Positions 357-20,254 of a DNA stretch of 34,802 nucleotides are shown piece by piece. The position numbers were made by a program, and so were the translations under genes. Within the stretch, counting starts at the first letter, position 1. Each line of letters starts with the position of its first letter. The notes under the pieces were generated by a model. That model ran no database searches. It was given only the letters and a program-made list of their open reading frames with translations, and was not told the origin of the DNA. Source of the DNA: Actinokineospora terrae (GTDB lineage Bacteria > Actinomycetota > Actinomycetes > Mycobacteriales > Pseudonocardiaceae); contig NZ_FOGI01000001.1 in NCBI RefSeq assembly GCF_900111175.1, forward strand, positions 447,382 to 482,183. The letters run 5' to 3'.

Positions 357-403
357 CGGTATGTCGGAGCAAGTTGCGGGTAGCCCGCACGCTGGAGGAT
401 CAG

Positions 404-3400
404 GTGTCGGACAACGAGTCAGGTCGTCGGAACGAGGCAGGCGACTCCCCCCGACGCGGATCCGATCGCGGCGAGAGCCGCTCAAGTTCGGACCGCGGCG
501 GCTACAACAAGACCGGCGGCCACAAGTCCGACCGGGGCGGTTACCGCGGCGGTGATCGCGACTCCCGTCCCGGCGGTGACCGGGGAACCCAGGACCGTGG
601 CGGCTACCGGTCCACCAACAGCTCCTCGGACCGTGGTGGCTACCGGTCCTCCGACTCCTCGCGTGGCGGCCCCCGCTCCGACGACCGCGGCGGCTCCCGC
701 TCCGGCGGCTTCCGCTCGGATGACCGGGGTGGCTCGCGGTCCAGCAGCTCCGACCGCGGCGGCTACAAGTCCTCCGACGATCGAGGCGGCTCGCGCTTCG
801 GCAGGTCCGACCGCGGGGCCTCCCGCTCCGGTGGCTCCGACCGCGGTGGATACCGCTCGGATGACCGTGGTGGTTACAAGTCGTCCGATGACCGTGGCGG
901 TTCGCGTTCCGGCGGGTTCCGTTCTGGCGCGACGGGTGGCGGGTTCCGCTCGGATGACCGGGGTGGCTCGCGGCCCAGCAGCTCTGACCGTGGCGGCTAC
1001 AAGTCTTCTGACGATCGCGGTGGTTCGCGCTCTGGTGGGTTCCGTTCTGGCGCAACAGGTGGCGGGTTCCGATCCGACGATCGCGGCGGTCCGCGCACCG
1101 GTGGATCGGACCGGGGCGGCTTCCGGTCCGGGGGTTCCGACCGTGGCGGTTTCCGGTCGGACGACCGGGGTGGCTCGCGGCCCAGCGGTGACCGTGGTGG
1201 TTCGCGGTTCGGTGGATCCGACCGTGGTGGCTTCAAGTCGGATGATCGCGGTGGCTCCCGTTCTGGTGGGTCGGATCGCGGTGGTTACCGCTCGGACGAC
1301 CGTGGGGGCTCGCGTCCGGGAAGTTCGGACCGTGGTGGTTACCGCTCCGATGACCGGGGCGGCTCGCGTTCTGGTGGCTCCGACCGCGGTGGGTACAAGT
1401 CCGACGATCGTGGTGGTTCGCGGTCGGGCGGGTCGGATCGCGGTGGTTTCCGGTCCGATGACCGGGGCGGCTCGCGCTTCGGTGGCTCGGACCGCGGTGG
1501 GTTCAAGTCTGATGACCGTGGTGGCTCGCGCTTCGGCGGATCCGATCGCGGTGGCTACAAGTCGGATGACCGGGGCGGTTCGCGCACCGGAAGCTCTGAC
1601 CGCGGCGGCTACAAGTCGGACGATCGGGGTGGCTCACGCACTGGTGGGTCCGACCGCGGTGGTTACCGCTCGGATGACCGGGGGAGCTCGCGTCCGACCG
1701 GTTCTGACCGTGGCGGGTTCCGCTCCGATGACCGGGGTGGTTCGCGGCCCAGCAGCTCCGACCGCGGGTTCAAGTCGGACGATCGCGGAGGTTCTCGTTC
1801 CGGCGGGTTCGATCGTGGCGGCTACAAGTCCGGCGATCGTGGTGGGTCGGACCGTGGCGGGTTCAAGTCGGATGACCGGGGAGGTTCGCGCACCGGGAGC
1901 TCCGACCGTGGTGGCTACCGCTCGGACGACCGGGGGAGTTCGCGCCCGTCCAGCTCGGATCGTGGTGGGTTCCGCTCCGATGATCGGGGTGGTTCGCGGC
2001 CCGGCAACTCTGACCGTGGCGGTTTCCGGTCCGGTAGCTCTGACCGTGGCGGCTACAAGTCTTCTGATGACCGTGGTGGTTACCGCGGTGGGGACCGTGA
2101 CTCGCGGCCTAGTGGTGACCGCTTCAAGTCGGATGATCGCGGGGGTTCGCGCTCCGGTGGGTTCCGCTCGGACGACCGGGGTAGCTCGCGGCCCGCTGGC
2201 TCGGATCGCGGTGGCTACAAGTCCGACGATCGGGGCGGTTCGCGTTCCGACGGGTTCAAGTCCGATGAGCGGTCCGGGTTCCGGGCCGCCGGGCGCGGGC
2301 ACTTCCGCGCTGACGACGTCGAGCCCGATCTCGTGGCCGCGACCGACGACGGCGACCAGGCTGACCAGGCCGACAAGCCGGTCGAGCGGCGGGAGCAGTC
2401 GCAGGACCGCTTCGTCGAGGTGACCGGGCGCCGGGAGCGGCCGCAGCGCGACTCGGGGGACCGGGACTCCGCGCCCGTCGAGTACGGGCCGAGGCTGCCC
2501 GAGGGCGCCGACTACTCCGCGCTCGACGTCGAGGCGCGGGCCGGGCTGCGCAGCCTGCCCAAGTCGCTGGCCGAGCTGGTGGGCAAGCACCTGGTCGCCG
2601 CGGGCATGCTCGTCGACGATGACCCGGAGCGCGCCCTCGAGCACGCCAGGTTCGCGCGGGAGCGTGCGGCGCGGGTGGCCGTTGTTCGGGAAGCCGCCGG
2701 GTTAACCGCCTACCACGCCGGTGAGTGGGCCGAGGCCCTCTCCGAGCTGCGCGCGGTCCGCCGGATGAGCGGCGGCAACACCTACATCGCCGTGATGGCC
2801 GACTGCGAGCGCGCGCTCGGCAGGCCGGAGCGGGCGCTGGAACTGGCCAAGGAAGCGGGGCGCGACCTGCCCGCGGACGTGGCCGTCGAGCTGCGGATCG
2901 TCAGCGCCGGTGCGCGCCGGGACATGGGCCAGCTGGAAGCGGCCGTGGTCAGCCTCCAGGGGCCGGACCTCGACCCCAAGCGGCGCGACCCGTGGAGCGC
3001 CCGGCTGTTCTACGCCTACGCCGACAACCTGGCCGCCGCGGACCGCACCGAGGAAGCCATCCAGTGGTTCCTCAACGCCGCCCAGGCCGACGACGACGAG
3101 GACACCGACGCCGCCGAGCGCGCCTTCGAGCTCGGCGCCGACGAGTCCGAGATCGCCGCCGCGCTGCCCGGCGAGACCGTCGAGGTGGACGAGTCCGCCG
3201 AGGACGCCGCCGCCGAGGACAACGCTGACGACGCCGACGAGTCCGAAGTGGACGACGAGGACGACCTGGTCGACTCCGACGACACGGCCGACGACCACCC
3301 CGTCGCGGACGACAACGCCGCCGTTGACGACAACAGCACCGTTGTCGACAACGCAGCGGTCAGCGAGAACGCAGCTGCTGACAACGCCGCCGCTGTCGAC

Positions 3401-3475
3401 AAGGGCGAGGACAACCCCGGCGAGGCCAAGAGCGCTGTGGGTGACAAGAGCGGCAAGGACGCCGTGGATGGCTGA
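404..3475 (+). CDS. TPR protein with giant RGG-repeat N-terminus and acidic tail
   Basis: 1023 aa from GTG 404, chosen because GGAGG (394-398) lies 5 nt upstream. An in-frame TTG at 374 lacks a ribosome site. There are three parts. (1) Residues ~15-625 are degenerate repeats of the type SDRGGYKSDDRGGSRSGG, with dozens of DRGG motifs: an arginine/glycine/serine/aspartate-rich disordered region. (2) Residues ~680-920 are helical, TPR-like, with the YHAGEWAEALSELRAVRRMSG and ALGRPERALELAKEAGRDLP repeats. (3) Residues ~925-1023 form a very acidic D/E/A/N tail. Wobble-position variation among the repeats (GAC/GAT, CGC/CGG/CGT, GGT/GGC) shows this strand and frame are the ones selected. Position before the HAD phosphatase and tlyA matches Rv1691 of M. 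tuberculosis, which is far shorter and has no RGG array. Function is unknown; RGG regions commonly bind RNA and promote condensates (family knowledge, not shown here). Its stop overlaps the start of the next gene, so the two are probably cotranslated. Confidence 0.88.
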   Translation: MSDNESGRRNEAGDSPRRGSDRGESRSSSDRGGYNKTGGHKSDRGGYRGGDRDSRPGGDRGTQDRGGYRSTNSSSDRGGYRSSDSSRGGPRSDDRGGSRSGGFRSDDRGGSRSSSSDRGGYKSSDDRGGSRFGRSDRGASRSGGSDRGGYRSDDRGGYKSSDDRGGSRSGGFRSGATGGGFRSDDRGGSRPSSSDRGGYKSSDDRGGSRSGGFRSGATGGGFRSDDRGGPRTGGSDRGGFRSGGSDRGGFRSDDRGGSRPSGDRGGSRFGGSDRGGFKSDDRGGSRSGGSDRGGYRSDDRGGSRPGSSDRGGYRSDDRGGSRSGGSDRGGYKSDDRGGSRSGGSDRGGFRSDDRGGSRFGGSDRGGFKSDDRGGSRFGGSDRGGYKSDDRGGSRTGSSDRGGYKSDDRGGSRTGGSDRGGYRSDDRGSSRPTGSDRGGFRSDDRGGSRPSSSDRGFKSDDRGGSRSGGFDRGGYKSGDRGGSDRGGFKSDDRGGSRTGSSDRGGYRSDDRGSSRPSSSDRGGFRSDDRGGSRPGNSDRGGFRSGSSDRGGYKSSDDRGGYRGGDRDSRPSGDRFKSDDRGGSRSGGFRSDDRGSSRPAGSDRGGYKSDDRGGSRSDGFKSDERSGFRAAGRGHFRADDVEPDLVAATDDGDQADQADKPVERREQSQDRFVEVTGRRERPQRDSGDRDSAPVEYGPRLPEGADYSALDVEARAGLRSLPKSLAELVGKHLVAAGMLVDDDPERALEHARFARERAARVAVVREAAGLTAYHAGEWAEALSELRAVRRMSGGNTYIAVMADCERALGRPERALELAKEAGRDLPADVAVELRIVSAGARRDMGQLEAAVVSLQGPDLDPKRRDPWSARLFYAYADNLAAADRTEEAIQWFLNAAQADDDEDTDAAERAFELGADESEIAAALPGETVEVDESAEDAAAEDNADDADESEVDDEDDLVDSDDTADDHPVADDNAAVDDNSTVVDNAAVSENAAADNAAAVDKGEDNPGEAKSAVGDKSGKDAVDG

Positions 3476-8684: not shown

Positions 8685-9932
8685 CTACGCCGCTTCCTGC
8701 TGCCCCGACTCAGCAGACGACTTCTGCGACGTCTCCGCCGGTGTCCTCTGCAACCGCGCCCACGACACCGCCAGCGGTACCGCCAAAGCGACCCCAAGCA
8801 ACCCAGCCAACGCCACCGTGTTCATCGCCGAGCCGATCAGCTCAGCCACCAATCCACCGGCGGCCACGCCAAGACCCTGTGACACCCGCAATCCAGTGCG
8901 GGCCGCGCCGAACGCGCCGCCGCGGATCTCGTTGGGGACGATGGAGTTGAACACGGCCATCACGGTGATCTGGTAGGCCCCGACCATCCCGGCCAGCGCG
9001 AGCAGCACCAGGGCCACGATGAGGTTCGGCTTGATCACGAACAGGGCCAGCACGCCCACCGAGGCCGTGGCCAGCACGCCCACCAGCTTCACCCGGTGGT
9101 GGTCGGGTACGAAACGCGAGATCAGGAACGTCCCCAGGATGAAGCCCATCGGGTCCGCGGCTAATAACCAGCCCACCGCCTCAGGCGGCGCCCCGGCCTC
9201 TTGCGCCAGGGGAGCGGCCAGGCCCTCGGGGATGACGGCAAGGCCAACGAGCCACGACAGGGACAACAGCACTCGCAGCCTGCGGTCGCTGAAGACCCAC
9301 TTGGCGCCGTCGAACCATCCGTCGTCCTTCGAGCCCGCGGGCGGGCGGTTGCGCACGTCGCGTTGGACCAAGATGGCGGCGATGGTGAAGGTGCCCGCGT
9401 CGATGAGCAGCGTGGCCGTGACGCCGATGGCGCCGATGAGCAGCCCACCACCACCGAGTCCGAGCAGCATCATCGTGTTCGTCGAGATGCCGCGCAGGTC
9501 CTGGCTGCGCAGGTACATCGCGTCGTCGTCGGCGAACACCTCGCGCGTGGTGGCGTTCTGCGCCGCGAGGGCGGGCGACTGCACCATCGGCACGATGATG
9601 ACCAGGACGAACAGCACCCACAGCGGCACGTGCGGGATGGCCATCGTGGCGACGACCACGGCCTGGATGACCGAGCACACCACCATCAGCGTCCGGCGCC
9701 GGTAGCGGTCCGCCAGCTGCGAGAGGCCAAGGCCGCCGGCCAGCGCGGGCAGGAACGTCAGCGCGTAGATGCCCGCGGCGTAGAAGGCCGATCCGGTGCG
9801 GTTGTAGACCAGGATCGCCAGCGCGACCCGGGTCAGCTGGTCCCCGGCGACGGAGACCGCCTCGGAGATCCAGAGCGCGCGGAACTCCCGGTTCGCCAGA
9901 ACCGTGACCATGCCCGGCGCTGCTCGGCTCAC
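8685..9932 (-). CDS. MFS transporter
   Basis: 415 aa from GTG 9932, chosen for GGGAG (9938-9942) 5 nt upstream. In-frame starts further out (ATG 10034, and 10091) lack a ribosome site and would add a polar, proline-rich leader. Residues 8-400 contain 10-12 hydrophobic segments. The MFS loop 2-3 motif is SQLADRYRRRTLM. A mid-protein break (VQRDVRNRPPAGSKDDGWFDGAKWVFSDRRLR) separates the two six-helix halves. It most resembles MFS_3/enterobactin-exporter-type permeases of actinobacteria; the substrate is unknown. The C-terminus is short, polar and Q/S-rich. The divergent SDR gene starts ~395 bp away, and the two could share control. Confidence 0.88.
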   Translation of the reverse strand: MSRAAPGMVTVLANREFRALWISEAVSVAGDQLTRVALAILVYNRTGSAFYAAGIYALTFLPALAGGLGLSQLADRYRRRTLMVVCSVIQAVVVATMAIPHVPLWVLFVLVIIVPMVQSPALAAQNATTREVFADDDAMYLRSQDLRGISTNTMMLLGLGGGGLLIGAIGVTATLLIDAGTFTIAAILVQRDVRNRPPAGSKDDGWFDGAKWVFSDRRLRVLLSLSWLVGLAVIPEGLAAPLAQEAGAPPEAVGWLLAADPMGFILGTFLISRFVPDHHRVKLVGVLATASVGVLALFVIKPNLIVALVLLALAGMVGAYQITVMAVFNSIVPNEIRGGAFGAARTGLRVSQGLGVAAGGLVAELIGSAMNTVALAGLLGVALAVPLAVSWARLQRTPAETSQKSSAESGQQEAA

Positions 9933-10327
9933 GTGTGCTCCCGTCCGGCGGGTTCGTGGCCCGCTGGCTGACTCCATCCTCCGCGCCCCTGGGTCTGGGG
10001 GCGGTGAACCCGGTGCCTGCCGCCGCTCGGTCATCGCGGCGTCGCACAGAGTACCGGCAGTATCGGCGCCTGATCGGCACAGGTGAAGCATCCAGGGCCC
10101 GGAAAACCCGCTGATGCGCCCGTCCGGCGCAACCGGTCCGATCGGTCGGCGACTACCCGCGGGCTGAATGGCCCACCGCGTTCGGCGCAGCCGCCTCGCC
10201 GCTCGTCGCCGGGCACCCCGGTGCCGTCACGAAGTACCCAACACTGGCGGGAGCTTGTGGCGGGATGACCGCCAGCGCGGGGGGCGCCGTCCACCGCGCG
10301 GATCGGGGCAGGCGTCAGGGGAGCGGC
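9933..10327. other. Divergent intergenic region, MFS / SDR
   Basis: 395 bp between two divergent starts. A perfect GGCACC-CC-GGTGCC palindrome lies at 10212-10225. TGGCGGGA is directly repeated around 10250, just before the SDR. No clear -35/-10 pair could be assigned for either gene. The longer in-frame starts of both genes fall here, so part of the region may be coding if those are used. Confidence 0.5.
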
Positions 10328-11209
10328 ATGGACGGCAGGGCAGTTGTGGTGACCGGGGCCGGGCGTGGTCTAGGGGAGGCGTTCGCGGCGCACCTGGCCC
10401 GAGCGGGCGCGGCGGTGGTGGTCAACGACGTCGACGAGCCGCTGGCGCTGCGGGTGGCCGAGGCGATCCGGCGCGACGGCGGGGCGGCGGTGGCGAGCGC
10501 GCACGACGTCGCCGACCCCGAGCAGGCCGACGCCCTCGTGGCGCTGTGCGTCGCCGAGTTCGGCGCGGTCCACGGGTTGGTCAACAACGCGGGCCTGACC
10601 TACGAGGCGCTGCCGTGGGAGGACGACGACCCGGCGCGGATCCGGGCGGTGGTCGAGGTGAACGTGCTCGGGGTGATCTACACGGGCCTGGCCGCGATCC
10701 GCCGGATGCGGGCGGCCGGGGGCGGGGCGATCGTCAACATCTCCTCCGGCGCCTCGCTCGGGCAGCGCACCATCGCCACCTACGCCGCCACCAAGGGCGC
10801 TGTGTCCTCGCTCACGACGTCCTGGGCGCTGGACCTGGAGGACTCCGGCATCCGGGTGAACGCGGTCTGCCCGAAGGCGTACACCAGGATGGTGTGGACC
10901 TCGGAACGGGCATCGCGGCACACACCGCCCGAACACACCCCCGACCTGGTGGCCCCGCTGGTGCACTTCCTGCTCGACGAGCGCTCGGCAGGCATCACCG
11001 GACAGGTCGTCCGCTGCACCGGACCGGAGTTGCACATCGTCGGTCAGCCCTACTTCAAGGCGCCGATCCTGCACCGCGACGCCTGGGACGTCGACACCGT
11101 GGCGACCGCGTTCGCGGAGGTGTTCGGCGGGCACCTGGAGCCCTACGGGCTGGAGAAGCGGTTGCCGCCGCGGCTGCGCAAGTGGCTGACCCCCGTGCGC
11201 AGCGCGTAG
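10328..11209 (+). CDS. Short-chain dehydrogenase/reductase (classical SDR)
   Basis: 293 aa from ATG 10328, chosen because the cofactor motif follows at once and AGGGGAG (10317-10323) lies upstream. ATG 10265 would add 21 basic residues before the Rossmann fold. The NAD(P)-binding motif is TGAGRGLG (9-16). NNAG is at 86-89, the active-site Ser139/140 is in NISSGAS, and YxxxK is Tyr152/Lys156 (TYAATKGA). VNAVCPKAYTRM is the PG-loop region, with PK in place of the usual PG. The C-terminal part after residue 200 is longer than usual (FAEVFGGHLEPYGLEKRLPP). Cytosolic oxidoreductase; substrate unknown. Confidence 0.9.
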   Translation: MDGRAVVVTGAGRGLGEAFAAHLARAGAAVVVNDVDEPLALRVAEAIRRDGGAAVASAHDVADPEQADALVALCVAEFGAVHGLVNNAGLTYEALPWEDDDPARIRAVVEVNVLGVIYTGLAAIRRMRAAGGGAIVNISSGASLGQRTIATYAATKGAVSSLTTSWALDLEDSGIRVNAVCPKAYTRMVWTSERASRHTPPEHTPDLVAPLVHFLLDERSAGITGQVVRCTGPELHIVGQPYFKAPILHRDAWDVDTVATAFAEVFGGHLEPYGLEKRLPPRLRKWLTPVRSA

Positions 11210-11245: not shown

Positions 11246-11334
11246 TTCGGGCGCTGCCCGGCGGTGGCGAACGTCGTAATCGAGTAGTCGACACGTCCGA
11301 GTAGTGTCGTGCTCCATTCGGGCGCTGCTTGGCG
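11246..11334. repeat. Pair of 18-bp direct repeats upstream of the GGDEF gene
   Basis: TTCGGGCGCTGCCCGGCG at 11246-11263 recurs at 11317-11334 with two changes (CC to TT). The copies are 71 bp apart, between the SDR stop and the predicted start at 11378. They could be regulator sites or a local duplication. Confidence 0.5.
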
Positions 11335-11364
11335 TAGCGGGGTCGCTACTGTCGGCGCAGGACG

Positions 11365-11370
11365 TACCGT
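11365..11370 (+). promoter_or_regulatory. -10 box for leaderless diguanylate cyclase transcript
   Basis: TACCGT fits TANNNT and lies exactly 7 nt before an in-frame GTG at 11378, the same geometry as recN, the S4 protein and oligoribonuclease in this window. No ribosome site precedes the alternative start at 11309. Confidence 0.5.
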
Positions 11371-11377
11371 GGGGACA

Positions 11378-14300
11378 GTGCCGCGCGGACCGGTCACGCG
11401 CGGCGAGGGCACGGCCGATGACACACCGCGTGAGCGGTGGGCGATGTCACGGGTGAGGGTCCGGCGGCCACGCCGGGCCGGGTACCCGGGTGTGGAACAA
11501 CCCCCCGGGCGCGCGGACGTCTCAGTGGACGCTCGCACGTGGTGCGGAGGAAGGGAGGGCGAGGCGTTGGGGCTCACCGATCGCGGCGACGCGCACGGCG
11601 CGCCGCTCACCGGCGTGCCTCCGGTTTCCGGTGGGGACACTGGGGATGCCGCTGCGGACAGGGGTTCCGCGCGCACCAAGCACGACCGGGTCATCGCCGC
11701 CACCGGTACTGCCGGGGCGGCGGGCGGGGTCACCGGCGACGGCCGCGCATCGGGCTCTGCCGCCGGTGTGGACGGTCGGACCGGGGATCCGGTCGAGGGC
11801 GGACTCGAGTCCGCCGAGGGGGTCGGGTCGGGGCTCACCGGTCGCGGGGACGCGCGCCAGGCGCCTCGTGCCGATCAAGCCGGGATCGAAGTGGACGGTC
11901 ACGCTGCGTCCACGGCTGCCGGGCTCACCAATCGCGGGACATCGGGCGCTCCTCTGCGGGGACGGGTCGGTGCGGGGGACGAGGGCGGTTTCACCAATCG
12001 CGGGACATCGGTAGCTCCTTCGGCCGAGTCGGTGGCTGAGGTCGACGCTGCGATCACCAGTCGCGGGACATGTGCGGCTCCTTCGGTTGCCGGGGCGGTG
12101 GGCGGTTCGGTGTTCACCAGTCGCGAGACATCGGTGGCTCCTTCTGCTGTGGTCGGGGTTGAGGCGGGGGCTGTGGTCACCAGTCGCGGGACATGTGCGG
12201 CTCCTTCGGTTGCCGAGGTGGCGGGCGGTTCGGTGTTCACCAGTCGCGAGACATCGGTGGCTCCTTCTGCTGTGGTCGGGGCTGAGGACGAGGCTCTGGT
12301 CACCAGTCACGAGACATTGAGGACTCCTTCGGCTGCGGTTGGGGTCGTGGCTGAGGCTGTGGTCACCAATCGCGGGACATTGAGGACTCCTGGTTCTGCT
12401 GGTGGGGCTGCGGTCGAGGGTGTGGTCACCAATCGCGGGACATGTGCGGCTCCTTCGGTCTATGGGGCTGGGGATGGCTCTGCGGTCACCAGTCACGGGA
12501 CATTGAGGACTCCTGGTTCTCCAAGTGGGGCTGTGGCTGAGGGAGTGGTCACCAGTCGCGAGACATGTGCGGCTCCTTCGGTTGATGGGGCGGTGGGCGG
12601 TTCGGTGTTCACCAGTCGCGAGACATTGACGGCTCCCTCTAGTGCGGTTGGGGTAGTGGCTGAAGCTGTGGTCACCAGTCACGGGACATTGAGGACTCCT
12701 GGTTCTGCTAGTGGGGTTGGGGCCGTGGTCACCAGTCACGAGACATCTGGGGCTCCTTCTGCTCCGGTCGGGACGGTGGGCGGGGTGGTCACCAGTCGCG
12801 GGACATCCGAGGCTCCTTCCGGGGGCGAGGGGGTCGGGCTGGACGGGGTCACCAGTCGCGTGAGCGCATCGGGGGCTCCTCCTGCGGGTACGGTCGGTGC
12901 TGTGGCGGACGGCGGCACCGGGCGCGCGAACGCGTCGGCCGCTACTCCTTTGCTCGATGTGGACGCTGCCGATAGGTACGCTGCCGGACACCACGCTGAC
13001 GACAGGGCTGTTCACCCTGCGCGGTCGGTTGGGGCGCGAGCGGAGCACGGGAACGCGAGCGCATCGGACACACCTCCAAGGGGATCCACGCTGGACGAAA
13101 CGTTCGACAGGCCGGAAGGTGACGCCGCGGCGGCGAATCGCAACCGTGGCGGCACCGGTGCCGACGTGCCTGGGTCGGCGCCCCGCGGGGGTGTCCGGCG
13201 CCGGATCCGTTCACGGCTAAGTGTGACCGACTCGCTGCGCACTGAACACCCTTCGTCTTGGCGGTGGGTCCGGTCGTGGGGACTGTGGTCGCTGCCGTCG
13301 GCCGCCCTGCGCTATGTGATCATCTTCGAACTCCTCGCCGCCACGGCGGTCGTCGTCGCCTGCCTTACCGACGTACCACCGACGCGGGCCGATTGGCGCT
13401 GGCTCGCTGTTCTGGTCGGCGCGGGCGCGGCGCACCTGTGGTTGTCGCGGCGCACGGAGGAGACCCGGCGCGACAGCGGCACCGGTCCGCACATGGACAC
13501 CAGCGTCGTGTGGATCCTGCCCGCGATGGTGTTGCTGCCCGCGTGGATGGCCGTGCTGTCGATGTTGCTGCTGCGCGTGCAGCTCTACCCGGTGGCCCGC
13601 CGACCGCTCTACCGCTACACCTTCGGCACCGCGGGCATCCTGCTCGCCGCGCTCGGTTCCTTCGCCGTGGTCCGGGTGGCCGGGGTGGACGTGACCAGCG
13701 CGTTCGGCGCCCGCGAGGCCCTGGTGCTGGCGCTGGCCGGGCTGACCTACTTCGTGATCAACGCCATCGCCATCGGCGGGGTCATCGCGCTGTCCACACC
13801 GCAGCCGACCTGGACCGTGGTGATCGGTTCGCGGCGCGACAACGCCATGGCGGCGCTGACGGTGTGCCTCGGCGCGCTGGCCGCGCTGGCCATCGCGCAC
13901 GCCTGGCTGGCGCCGCTGTTCGTGGTGCCGCTGCTGTGCGCGCTGGACTGGGGCGCCCTGCAGATCGAGAACCTGCGCGGCGACGCCCGCACCGACCACA
14001 AGACCCAGCTGCTCAACAGCCGCGGCTGGCACGAGCAGGCGGGCCGGGAGATGTCCCGCTCGGCGCGGCTGCGCACGACGCTGTCGGTCGCGGTGCTCGA
14101 CCTGGACCACTTCAAGCTCGTCAACGACACCTGGGGCCACCCGGCTGGCGACGCGGTGCTGCGCGCGGTCGGCCGGGTCCTGCGCGAGACCACCCGCCAG
14201 GGCGATGTGGTGGGTCGCTTCGGCGGCGAGGAGTTCGTGCTGCTGCTGCCCGACACCGACCTCGACGGCGCCGTGCAGGTCGCCGAGCGCATCCGCCGCG

Positions 14301-14509
14301 GTGTGGCCGCCATGCAGGTCGCCGCCACCGACAAGCGCGGCCAGCCGGTCGTCATCAGCGGCCGCACCACCTCCATCGGCGTGGCCACCGCCTCCGGGGT
14401 CGACCTGGACACGATGCTGCGCCGCGCCGACGCCGCGGTGTACGAGGCCAAGCACGGTGGCCGCAACCAGGTCCGAGTGGCGGACCACACCGCGGACGCG
14501 GCCCTCTAG
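11378..14509 (+). CDS. Membrane diguanylate cyclase (GGDEF) with repeat N-terminus
   Basis: 1043 aa if it starts at GTG 11378. The certain part is residues ~617-1043. About seven hydrophobic segments (from LRYVIIFELLAATAVVVA to LAPLFVVPLLCALDW) are followed by a GGDEF domain with DHKTQLLNSRGW, DLDHFKLVNDTWGH and the active site GGEEF. RQGD sits five residues before it, a product-inhibition I-site (RxxD). It should make cyclic di-GMP from two GTP at the inner membrane face. Residues ~65-560 are repeats such as VVTSRGTCAAPSV, with codon use unlike the rest (many ACA, AGT, TCT, GCT). This region is the antisense of the MSRDW mini-ORF array, so its translation is doubtful. GTG 13223 (VTDSLRTEHPSSW) is an alternative start that keeps all recognisable domains but has no ribosome site. 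In favour of the long form, the frame stays open and unit spacing is always a multiple of three. Confidence 0.72.
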   Translation: MPRGPVTRGEGTADDTPRERWAMSRVRVRRPRRAGYPGVEQPPGRADVSVDARTWCGGREGEALGLTDRGDAHGAPLTGVPPVSGGDTGDAAADRGSARTKHDRVIAATGTAGAAGGVTGDGRASGSAAGVDGRTGDPVEGGLESAEGVGSGLTGRGDARQAPRADQAGIEVDGHAASTAAGLTNRGTSGAPLRGRVGAGDEGGFTNRGTSVAPSAESVAEVDAAITSRGTCAAPSVAGAVGGSVFTSRETSVAPSAVVGVEAGAVVTSRGTCAAPSVAEVAGGSVFTSRETSVAPSAVVGAEDEALVTSHETLRTPSAAVGVVAEAVVTNRGTLRTPGSAGGAAVEGVVTNRGTCAAPSVYGAGDGSAVTSHGTLRTPGSPSGAVAEGVVTSRETCAAPSVDGAVGGSVFTSRETLTAPSSAVGVVAEAVVTSHGTLRTPGSASGVGAVVTSHETSGAPSAPVGTVGGVVTSRGTSEAPSGGEGVGLDGVTSRVSASGAPPAGTVGAVADGGTGRANASAATPLLDVDAADRYAAGHHADDRAVHPARSVGARAEHGNASASDTPPRGSTLDETFDRPEGDAAAANRNRGGTGADVPGSAPRGGVRRRIRSRLSVTDSLRTEHPSSWRWVRSWGLWSLPSAALRYVIIFELLAATAVVVACLTDVPPTRADWRWLAVLVGAGAAHLWLSRRTEETRRDSGTGPHMDTSVVWILPAMVLLPAWMAVLSMLLLRVQLYPVARRPLYRYTFGTAGILLAALGSFAVVRVAGVDVTSAFGAREALVLALAGLTYFVINAIAIGGVIALSTPQPTWTVVIGSRRDNAMAALTVCLGALAALAIAHAWLAPLFVVPLLCALDWGALQIENLRGDARTDHKTQLLNSRGWHEQAGREMSRSARLRTTLSVAVLDLDHFKLVNDTWGHPAGDAVLRAVGRVLRETTRQGDVVGRFGGEEFVLLLPDTDLDGAVQVAERIRRGVAAMQVAATDKRGQPVVISGRTTSIGVATASGVDLDTMLRRADAAVYEAKHGGRNQVRVADHTADAAL
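11925..12881 (-). repeat. Array of 16 MSRDW mini-ORFs, each with its own ribosome site
   Basis: On the minus strand the core ATG-TCY-CGY-GAY-TGG-TGA (M-S-R-D-W-stop) occurs 15 times: 11925-11942, 11991-12008, 12054-12071, 12114-12131, 12177-12194, 12237-12254, 12300-12317, 12363-12380, 12426-12443, 12486-12503, 12549-12566, 12609-12626, 12672-12689, 12729-12746 and 12789-12806. A sixteenth at 12849-12869 has one added codon (MRSRDW). Every ATG has a GGAG-containing Shine-Dalgarno (mostly AAGGAG) ending exactly 6 nt upstream. ATG-to-ATG spacing is 57-66 nt. Spacers are C/A-rich and similar in families. Decayed units flank the array: 11574-11591 and 11835-11852 keep a TGA but have lost ATG, and ~12915-12935 has lost both. 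The longer plus-strand ORF runs antisense through all of it. Function unknown. Confidence 0.8.
12942..13064 (-). CDS. Possible 40-aa basic ORF at the head of the MSRDW array
   Basis: ATG 13064 begins MRSRSRAPLAPQ, whose first four residues match the MRSRDW unit. The 40-residue product is rich in Gln and Arg and ends RAKE at 12942. TTGGAG precedes the ATG with a 9-nt spacer instead of 6. It could be a decayed outer unit whose stop was lost, or a leader ORF of a minus-strand transcript. Evidence is weak. Confidence 0.2.
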   Translation of the reverse strand: MRSRSRAPLAPQPTAQGEQPCRQRGVRQRTYRQRPHRAKE

Positions 14510-19542: not shown

Positions 19543-19835
19543 CTACCGGGTTGGGGACACGCACCTCCGATCCTCAACCACGGTCCTGGCCGCCCGAAAG
19601 GCCGCGTTATTCCCTTTCGTTCCCATTCGCACGCCTATTCCACAATGGAACGCCGGAATCACCGACCACCCCCACCGCTGTCCACCGCGCCACCCCACCC
19701 CAAAGCGCCAGAATGCGCTTGTCCACCAACCAAACCGCCCCCGGCCACTCCCCCGCCCCCTCGCGCTGGCGCCCCCCAGGTGTCCCATGTGGTCCGGTCG
19801 CACCACCCCGCTCGAGCCCCCCGGACCTGCCCCCA

Positions 19836-20104
19836 CCGCACCGTGGGCGACAGCCCCATCGGTTACATACTCGATGTGAGGGCCGAAGGCCGAGCGAGCC
19901 CCCGCTGGGTCCGGCGACCGCCGCGCCATGGGCGACAAGCTCATTGGTTACATACTCGACGCGAAGGCCGAAGGCCCGAGCGAGCCAACGCTGGGTCGAG
20001 AGTGACCGCACCGTGGGCGACAAGCTCATTGGTTACATACTCGATGTGAGGGCCGTCAGGCCCGAGCGAGCGACGCTGGGTCGCGCGATATCGCACCGTG
20101 GGGG
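19836..20104. repeat. 85-bp tandem repeat, 3 full copies plus a partial fourth
   Basis: The copies are 19836-19920, 19921-20005 and 20006-20090, each exactly 85 bp, with a truncated fourth start at 20091-20104. The most conserved block is GGTTACATACTCGA. A GGCC-rich hairpin (GGCCGAAGGCC type) is in each unit. On the plus strand each copy starts an ORF of the type MGDKLIGYILD with GTG, ATG or GTG (19843, 19928, 20013). The middle copy stops after 25 residues; the others run on. Since 85 is not a multiple of 3, each copy sets its own frame. No Shine-Dalgarno is present. Function unknown. Confidence 0.85.
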
Positions 20105-20181: not shown

Positions 20182-20254
20182 TGCGCCGCCAGGGACTCGA
20201 ACCCCGAACCCGCTGGTTAAGAGCCAGCTGCTCTGCCAGTTGAGCTAGCGGCGC
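20182..20254 (-). tRNA. tRNA-Lys (anticodon CTT)
   Basis: A 73-nt cloverleaf on the minus strand. The acceptor stem is GCGCCGC/GCGGCGC with discriminator A. The D-arm is GCTCAACTGGCAGAGC. The anticodon stem GCTGG/CCAGC carries loop CTCTTAA (anticodon CTT, codon AAG). The T-arm is GGGGTTCGAGTCCC. CCA is not encoded. Confidence 0.97.

Follow-up and report, generated by a model that had tools for sequence, protein, structure and literature searches.

Genes of only a few codons have been described in bacteria. The biarylitide precursor genes bytA are 18 bp long, encode a pentapeptide and sometimes occur in several copies per locus (available part of PMC13417212), and open reading frames (ORFs) of 2–8 codons can be translated reiteratively, as shown for mccA (available part of PMC6495379). 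Here we analyse a 34,802-nt stretch of the Actinokineospora terrae genome (contig NZ_FOGI01000001.1; the whole stretch is called the window), whose minus strand carries an array of sixteen micro-genes antisense to, and upstream of, a gene for a membrane GGDEF protein. A first-pass annotation had read the array as real pentapeptide genes, pointing to BytA for the existence of 18-bp genes, a point that the biarylitide precursors bear out (PMC13417212, same part). Peptide-level selection now supports that reading, as do homologous arrays with diverged spacers in other genera, the kind of evidence that the annotation had itself asked for. We further consider it fairly probable that the micro-genes encode a short signal peptide, for which the neighbouring membrane diguanylate cyclase is the predicted mediator; all evidence for this is comparative. 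A full-text search of the open-licence literature returned no earlier report of such a system. Gene size alone is not new, given the biarylitide precursors; the arrays, their partner and their spread are.

A pattern search of the 7.59 Mb genome recovered 15 exact copies of GGAGNNNNNNATGTCYCGYGAYTGGTGA, every one on the minus strand between window positions 11925 and 12816, with no forward-strand match and none for the reversed-pattern control genome-wide; the full MSRDW pattern, GGAG-N6-ATG-TCY-CGY-GAY-TGG-TGA, is confined to this array. The 15 copies are five-codon frames of 18 nt, MSRDW and a stop (minus strand, 11925..12806), each with GGAG 6 nt before its ATG and with stop-codon (low) ends at 11925, 11991, 12054, 12114, 12177, 12237, 12300, 12363, 12426, 12486, 12549, 12609, 12672, 12729 and 12789. 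The sixteenth (minus strand, 12849..12869) has six codons, MRSRDW and a stop, again with GGAG 6 nt upstream. The first-pass count of sixteen ATG-TCY-CGY-GAY-TGG-TGA copies is thus right for 15 and wrong for the last, while GGAG, the 6-nt gap and a complete start-to-stop frame are present in all 16, as described. The intervals of 57–66 nt given there were also measured among the 15 MSRDW copies, each divisible by three, and the array is indeed beyond chance: shuffled windows yield 0.20 matches to the 18-nt motif at up to three mismatches, against 15 exact copies.

The copy nearest the GGDEF gene (minus strand, 13050..13078) is decayed: it reads GGAGGTGTGTCCG, then ATGCGCTCGCGT with its stop lost, and retains GGAGGTG before ATGCGCTCGCGT. 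In two relatives (G006 and G015) the same GGAGGTGTGTCCG is followed by an MRSRDW copy that is intact. At the far end, positions 11566-11870 hold older, decayed plus-frame repeats (LTDRGDAHGAP, LTGRGDARQAP) without a minus-strand start, which suggests that the ends of the array erode. No Rfam family matched the array at gathering threshold, here or at four other loci. We rejected a CRISPR-like repeat array because the repeats vary synonymously and the spacers resemble one another; no cas gene was present among the five neighbour genes scanned with Pfam.

Is the peptide itself under selection? We compared the window with 15 other Actinokineospora loci, taking the regions upstream of the GGDEF-gene relatives, and collected 160 micro-ORFs by a Shine-Dalgarno rule that misses weak sites. 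At least two micro-ORFs were present in 14 of the 16 loci, one in G008 and none intact in G004. Trp and Arg are invariant (160/160 each) and Asp occurs in 159 of the 160, written both GAC and GAT. Serine is written TCN in 110 copies and AGY in 33, and because both codon types are used, constraint on a DNA word is excluded. Codon differences between distinct copies within arrays are 293 synonymous and 8 non-synonymous in the minus frame, whereas the same differences read in the plus frame are 23 and 278. Part of the 293:8 ratio is built in, as the anchor of the finder demands an R, a D/E/A/N residue, a W/F/Y residue and a stop in succession; the free codon preceding the anchor gives 150 synonymous and 0 non-synonymous differences (null, 0.30 synonymous) and the three anchored codons 143 and 8 (null given the anchor, 0.59). 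Other genera, with far fewer copies, give 6 and 3 for the free codon and 16 and 3 for the anchored ones. As expected of short coding genes, synonymous changes far outnumber non-synonymous ones, start codons interchange among starts (ATG 145, GTG 12, TTG 3) and stops among stops (TGA 146, TAA 10, TAG 4). These comparative statistics show that each 18–21-nt unit is a complete start-to-stop frame under purifying selection for the peptide, not for a DNA word.

Such conservation bears on one option of the first-pass annotation, a ribosome or initiation-factor sponge, or more generally a sink, also for tRNA, built of many strong start sites. Minigenes can deplete tRNAs (lambda bar), and a strong Shine-Dalgarno sequence precedes every window copy. 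But a sink leaves unexplained the conserved amino acids, the different peptides of paralogous modules, the genera with a single copy and the link to GGDEF genes described below, and we give it very little credence.

The array also overlies, in phase, a plus-strand ORF (11309-14509) whose 3' part is the GGDEF protein; the open frame running through the array into that gene (plus strand, 11309..13222) is a possible repetitive N-terminal extension. In Actinokineospora all 145 spacings, from 14 loci, are multiples of three (printed spacings, 57–144 nt). In 12 of 12 genomes of the genus, the array contains no stop in the plus frame that continues in phase into the GGDEF gene (~3,380 codons). Both observations would suit a repetitive plus-strand protein of which the minus-strand ORFs are a by-product, chance readings of plus codons. 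The codon differences argue the opposite (23:278 in the plus frame, 293:8 in the minus). Each of the three variable bases of the MSRDW motif is synonymous in the minus frame and occupies a second codon position in the plus frame. G+C content at plus-frame third codon positions is 0.55-0.68 across the array vs 0.96-0.98 in the GGDEF part, and the codon composition of the ORF becomes coding-like only from ~13400 onward. Moreover, the micro-genes are kept in five loci where spacings are not all multiples of three (L056, L057, L059, L066 and L073), four of which (not L066) have plus-frame stops; multiples of three are kept in L060 (3/3) and L055 (1/1). On the codon statistics and the genera without the plus frame we rejected a plus-strand repeat protein as the sole cause, an account with next to no probability left.

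Minus-strand coding, as first proposed, is thus supported, but the plus strand is also held in frame in this genus, a periodicity of three that the first-pass annotation had not noticed. Given this periodicity and a plus frame free of stops, the Actinokineospora array probably overlies a translated extension of the GGDEF gene, though codon usage there is not coding-like, and both strands appear constrained. In another genome (G070, contig C28; L271 4624-8136, minus strand), a transporter of the major facilitator superfamily (MFS), an array and a GGDEF protein share one open frame of ~1170 codons, with six antisense copies of (S)RSWDW between them at spacings of 69, 90, 69, 99 and 72, all multiples of three; this may be a second double-coded array.

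Which genes accompany the micro-genes? In the window the GGDEF protein, a predicted diguanylate cyclase and proposed receptor (plus strand, 13223..14509), has a GGEEF motif and a likely GTG start at 13223. An MFS transporter, the proposed peptide exporter (minus strand, 8685..10091), is nearest to NCBIfam TIGR00900 and EntS, below their cut-offs, and is presumably of the DHA3 type. Among 39 compared loci, 36 have a GGDEF gene of this one membrane family, and the micro-genes are always antisense to it, upstream and divergent. The MFS gene is convergent with the array in 26 loci, on the array's strand in 8 (the window, L080, L085, L103 and L113-L116, Actinokineospora and G019 among them) and not seen in 5. 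In L103 (5999) and L113 (5981), a single VRNRDF with a Shine-Dalgarno sequence stands shortly before a same-strand MFS gene, with no GGDEF match in 12 kb. Some MFS relatives lie within open frames of 800-825 codons (G512, G535, G552), or ~1250-1300 codons in several f28 genomes, suggesting fusions of the transporter with other domains. A short-chain dehydrogenase (SDR; plus strand, 10265..11209) is a frequent but not constant neighbour; absent from many modules, it was dropped as a component and is probably not part of the system.

These orientations weigh on the idea that the micro-genes are cis-acting leader ORFs, at which ribosome stalling on the nascent peptide, as in MsrDL or TnaC, would control the transcription or translation of a downstream gene, or that the array transcript is antisense to the MFS gene. 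Their lengths suit a leader, MsrDL being the six-codon leader of a macrolide-resistance gene (available part of PMC10314930); conservation is highest towards the C terminus, and single copies do precede a same-strand MFS gene in L103 and L113. A leader attenuator, however, has the gene that it regulates immediately behind it in the same orientation; the MFS gene shares the array's strand in only 8 of the 39 loci, and the GGDEF gene is divergent in 36 of 36. Arrays also persist despite the flipped MFS gene of Actinokineospora and G019, the type of stop codon varies, and a single switch would hardly call for sixteen stalls in a row. Because no gene is constantly downstream on the array's strand, leader-peptide action is less likely, and we hold it improbable; antisense control of the MFS gene was rejected since its orientation is not conserved.

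The association with both partners extends to micro-ORFs of any sequence. Among 68 loci where an MFS and a GGDEF gene are near each other, some of them overlapping copies of the same place, an antisense micro-ORF is present in 62, where shuffles predict 15.1, and a sense-strand one in 3; one or two of the 62 look like chance (e.g., LVLGLHGV in L230). An antisense micro-ORF is also present at 20 of the 30 GGDEF loci that lack a nearby MFS gene; 14 of these are from Actinokineospora, whose MFS gene was seen at a greater distance in the three loci that extend far enough.

By a rough gene finder, the only gene family common to all of 23 compared loci was a merged MFS/GGDEF group, with no tailoring enzyme family in common, though no ThiF or P450 profile was used. 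This result bears on another first-pass option, an array of precursors for a ribosomally synthesized and post-translationally modified peptide (RiPP) on the model of bytA/biarylitide or mccA/microcin C, its product exported by the MFS protein. Microcin C is itself a heptapeptide that begins MR and is exported by an MFS protein. Precursor genes of five and seven codons exist, and up to six bytA copies are reported in Lysinibacillus (PMC13417212, same part). But the window peptide has a single aromatic residue, and of the partner genes the most constant encodes a signalling enzyme. With no tailoring enzyme family common to the 23 loci, we regard a RiPP as a less likely reading and as quite improbable. 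A defence system was rejected, as PADLOC gave no match for the MFS, GGDEF or SDR protein.

We then asked how widely the system is spread. GGDEF-gene relatives were found in 15 of 15 same-genus genomes, those of G001, G002 and G004 with one in-frame stop each, and in other genera. Within the family, other peptides include VSGRDF, VSDRDF, M/VSSRDF, MSDRAW, MRNRAW, VRDREY and [S/A/T]NRDF, in arrays or single copies; relatives' peptides mostly fit M-R-x-x-x-W/F/Y. A looser pattern matches 119 of 297 family genomes and 24 of 46 genera (reversed control, 8 genomes). In an order-level set of 249 genomes, 7 of 207 outside the family have one match each, which we treated as chance given 4 of 207 for the reversed control. 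A scan of 84,980 species returned 71 matching stretches, 66 of which carry genus names that we take to belong to Pseudonocardiaceae (Amycolatopsis, Actinokineospora, Lentzea, Prauserella, Saccharomonospora, Crossiella and others). One Actinomycetes metagenome-assembled genome in that scan has the whole module, and three distant stretches have neither partner; L104, L165, L167 and L197, with no MFS or GGDEF match, were treated as chance. Modules beyond the family encode MRSNDWH and MRDSNW, and modules beyond the order, as arrays, MRDNTWT, MRDTTWS, MRDNNWN, MRANSWD and MRDNKWSR. The largest tandem array has 24 copies (L045).

Paralogous MFS-GGDEF pairs of other genera have peptides of their own: MRDRDM, MLDREY, RDKIW, MRNREW, MRDREY, MRGRDY, MREKIW, MRNRDM and the six-copy (S)RSWDW array. 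Two modules with different peptides can share a genome (MREKIW and MRNREW in G036, RDKIW and RNRDM in G061, MRDRDM and RSWDW in G070). In the window's genome, likewise, a second GGDEF gene is accompanied by a different pair, MRNREY and VRNREY, whose pattern has no other match in that genome; at the third GGDEF gene there (C19:287426) no micro-gene of the R...W/F/Y/M type was found.

A profile of the GGDEF family marked 55 places in 197 class genomes, of which 17 had already been examined; the 38 new regions, in batches of 20 and 18, were chosen by GGDEF homology alone, regardless of micro-ORF content. A peptide filter (R...W/F/Y/M near the end) was written after the first batch had been viewed and fixed before the second. 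Overall, 21 of the 38 have a filtered antisense micro-gene, with ~0.5 expected and 0 on the opposite strand; the second GGDEF gene of the window's genome is one of the positives. In the first batch, unfiltered antisense Shine-Dalgarno micro-ORFs are present in 17/20 regions vs 3/20 for the sense strand, and filtered ones in 16/20 (0.38 expected, other strand 0); all eight regions adjoining an MFS gene are positive (MRGNSWD in five, MRANSWD, MRDAHW and MRGADW). In the second, 5/18 are positive after filtering (MRHTSWS, MLRGVTWI, MRDTTWI, MRGNNWT and MRNIIWG; 0.10 expected, other strand 0) and 13 without it, vs 2 on the sense strand; four further regions have W-containing micro-ORFs outside the filter (VSSGVQWV, MVTSGATWI, MSKGVSWA and VRNTHWTRA). 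In family f31, the antisense micro-ORFs of L301, L289, L306, L307 and L308 end in W plus I, V or A (among them MLRGVTWI, VSSGVQWV, MVTSGATWI and MSKGVSWA) and are perhaps a divergent branch of the same system.

The window GGDEF protein consists of an N-terminal membrane domain of no Pfam family and a GGDEF domain. An AlphaFold model (mean predicted local distance difference test score 87.9) has seven or eight long helices ahead of the GGDEF domain, and a charged stretch, RRxEExRR, is conserved between membrane helices. All of 16 aligned GGDEF proteins have GGEE, and 14 of them have the final F (replaced by I in L083 and by L in L206), in agreement with the GG(D/E)EF active-site motif of diguanylate cyclases. 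Among modules, mean identity is 0.37 for the membrane domain and 0.55 for the GGDEF domain. Over 53 modules, peptide distance correlates with membrane-domain distance when GGDEF-domain distance is controlled for (partial r 0.305, p 0.0005) and, in reverse, with GGDEF-domain distance when that of the membrane domain is controlled for (partial r 0.154, p 0.0075). That the peptide tracks the membrane domain more closely is suggestive only.

How would such a system work? Among the first-pass options, a multi-copy signal peptide fits best because the partner genes recur; as in peptide quorum sensing, the peptide gene adjoins a conserved candidate receptor. The array would mass-produce a short signal peptide, here fMSRDW and fMRSRDW and in relatives mostly fM-R-x-x-x-W/F/Y. 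Its own promoter would drive one transcript on which all cistrons are translated, perhaps reiteratively as for mccA, and copy number would set the dose. The MFS protein would export the peptide, and the membrane domain of the GGDEF protein would sense it and alter cyclic di-GMP (c-di-GMP). More tentatively, and without leaning to either side by much, we entertain a widespread actinobacterial form of cell-cell signalling by formyl-peptides of 5–8 residues, with MFS export, a paired membrane diguanylate cyclase and several private channels per cell, in which the Actinokineospora array would also be double-coded, with the opposite strand contributing part of the receptor. Alternatively, the peptide could act inside the cell on the GGDEF or MFS protein, for instance at the cytosolic face, without export or outside sensing. 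Such action would suit the GGDEF protein being the most constant partner, an MFS gene that may be absent, and the RRxEExRR stretch; the frequent adjacent exporter and the different peptides of paralogous modules, however, fit an exported signal at least as well, and we consider intracellular action unlikely, if a little easier to entertain than the other rivals of the main reading.

Several observations weigh against an exported signal sensed by the GGDEF protein. (i) The exporter is not constant: no MFS gene was seen in L095, L100, L104, L106 and L110 (5/39), and several GGDEF genes without an adjoining one still have micro-genes. (ii) Micro-genes can be missing: 6 of the 68 MFS-GGDEF loci have no antisense micro-ORF, though L235 has them in another scan; neither have 10 of the 30 GGDEF loci lacking a nearby MFS gene, all lower-scoring GGDEF relatives. 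Among the new regions, 4/20 and 13/18 have no filtered micro-gene, and in family f31, whose GGDEF genes adjoin no MFS gene, 2/14 are positive, with W-containing micro-ORFs outside the filter in 3 more. Within Actinokineospora itself, G004 has a decayed copy only and G008 a single one. (iii) The Foldseek matches listed align the GGDEF part only, leaving the membrane domain without a known ligand class, and the partial Mantel test leaves shared ancestry in place. (iv) A consensus scan recognised no promoter or terminator for the window's own array.

Elsewhere, 12 of 44 loci have a TAYCATYYCAY element directed towards the array, 75-174 nt ahead of the first Shine-Dalgarno sequence, with 0 on the other strand and 0.0 expected; the pattern was picked after the sequences had been viewed, and the 12 are related loci that do not include the window's own. 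The element fits a TAnnnT -10 box and is promoter-like. In L117-L125, all of one genus, the interval separating the first micro-gene from the GGDEF gene contains a block of ~130-150 nt that by eye looks more conserved than the flanking coding ends and is likely a divergent promoter/operator region. Apart from the module, the window has about three copies of an 85-bp repeat (19835-20102), each with a GGGCC-GAA-GGCCC hairpin, beside a minus-strand tRNA gene (20182-20254), perhaps repeated terminators, and a 1033-codon open frame (374-3475) with long stretches of SDRGG(Y/F)RSDDRGGSR-type repeats.

The micro-genes would rank among the shortest known genes, far below the length that gene finders annotate, and through them a peptide is linked to a predicted producer of c-di-GMP, a regulator of development and antibiotic production in actinomycetes. 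If the receptor pairing is true, antibiotic producers such as Amycolatopsis gain an addressable, synthesizable signal of 5–8 residues, and Actinokineospora would also offer a clear case of antisense double coding.

How does the array compare with described systems? With mccA and microcin C it would share a few-codon gene translated directly into a short formylated peptide, and export by an MFS protein, mccA having seven codons and being translated reiteratively (PMC6495379, same part); unlike there, arrays reach 24 copies, the partner is a GGDEF protein, and no nucleotide-adding enzyme family, MccB-like adenylating enzymes included, is common to the 23 loci by the rough gene finder, no ThiF profile search having been made. 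Like bytA, the micro-genes include 18-bp pentapeptide genes, sometimes multi-copy (PMC13417212, same part), but MSRDW, with one aromatic residue, has no aromatic pair and no His, and the 23 loci share no P450 partner (no P450 profile search was made). As background, biarylitide systems have a cross-linking P450 nearby and two cross-linkable residues in the peptide. MsrDL and TnaC are alike in their few codons, a strong Shine-Dalgarno sequence and, sometimes, a nearby efflux gene, and unlike in that the micro-genes mostly have no same-strand downstream gene, form arrays and vary in peptide by module. RRNPP systems have a cytosolic tetratricopeptide-repeat receptor and a secreted propeptide with a signal sequence, whereas the products here are mostly 5–8 residues long and the partner is a membrane GGDEF protein. 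The array resembles peptide pheromone systems in general (RRNPP, Agr, Com) in having a short peptide gene beside a proposed receptor, often with an exporter, and paralogous modules with different peptides; it differs in that the gene is the whole peptide, with no precursor or leader, and that the candidate receptor is a membrane GGDEF protein.

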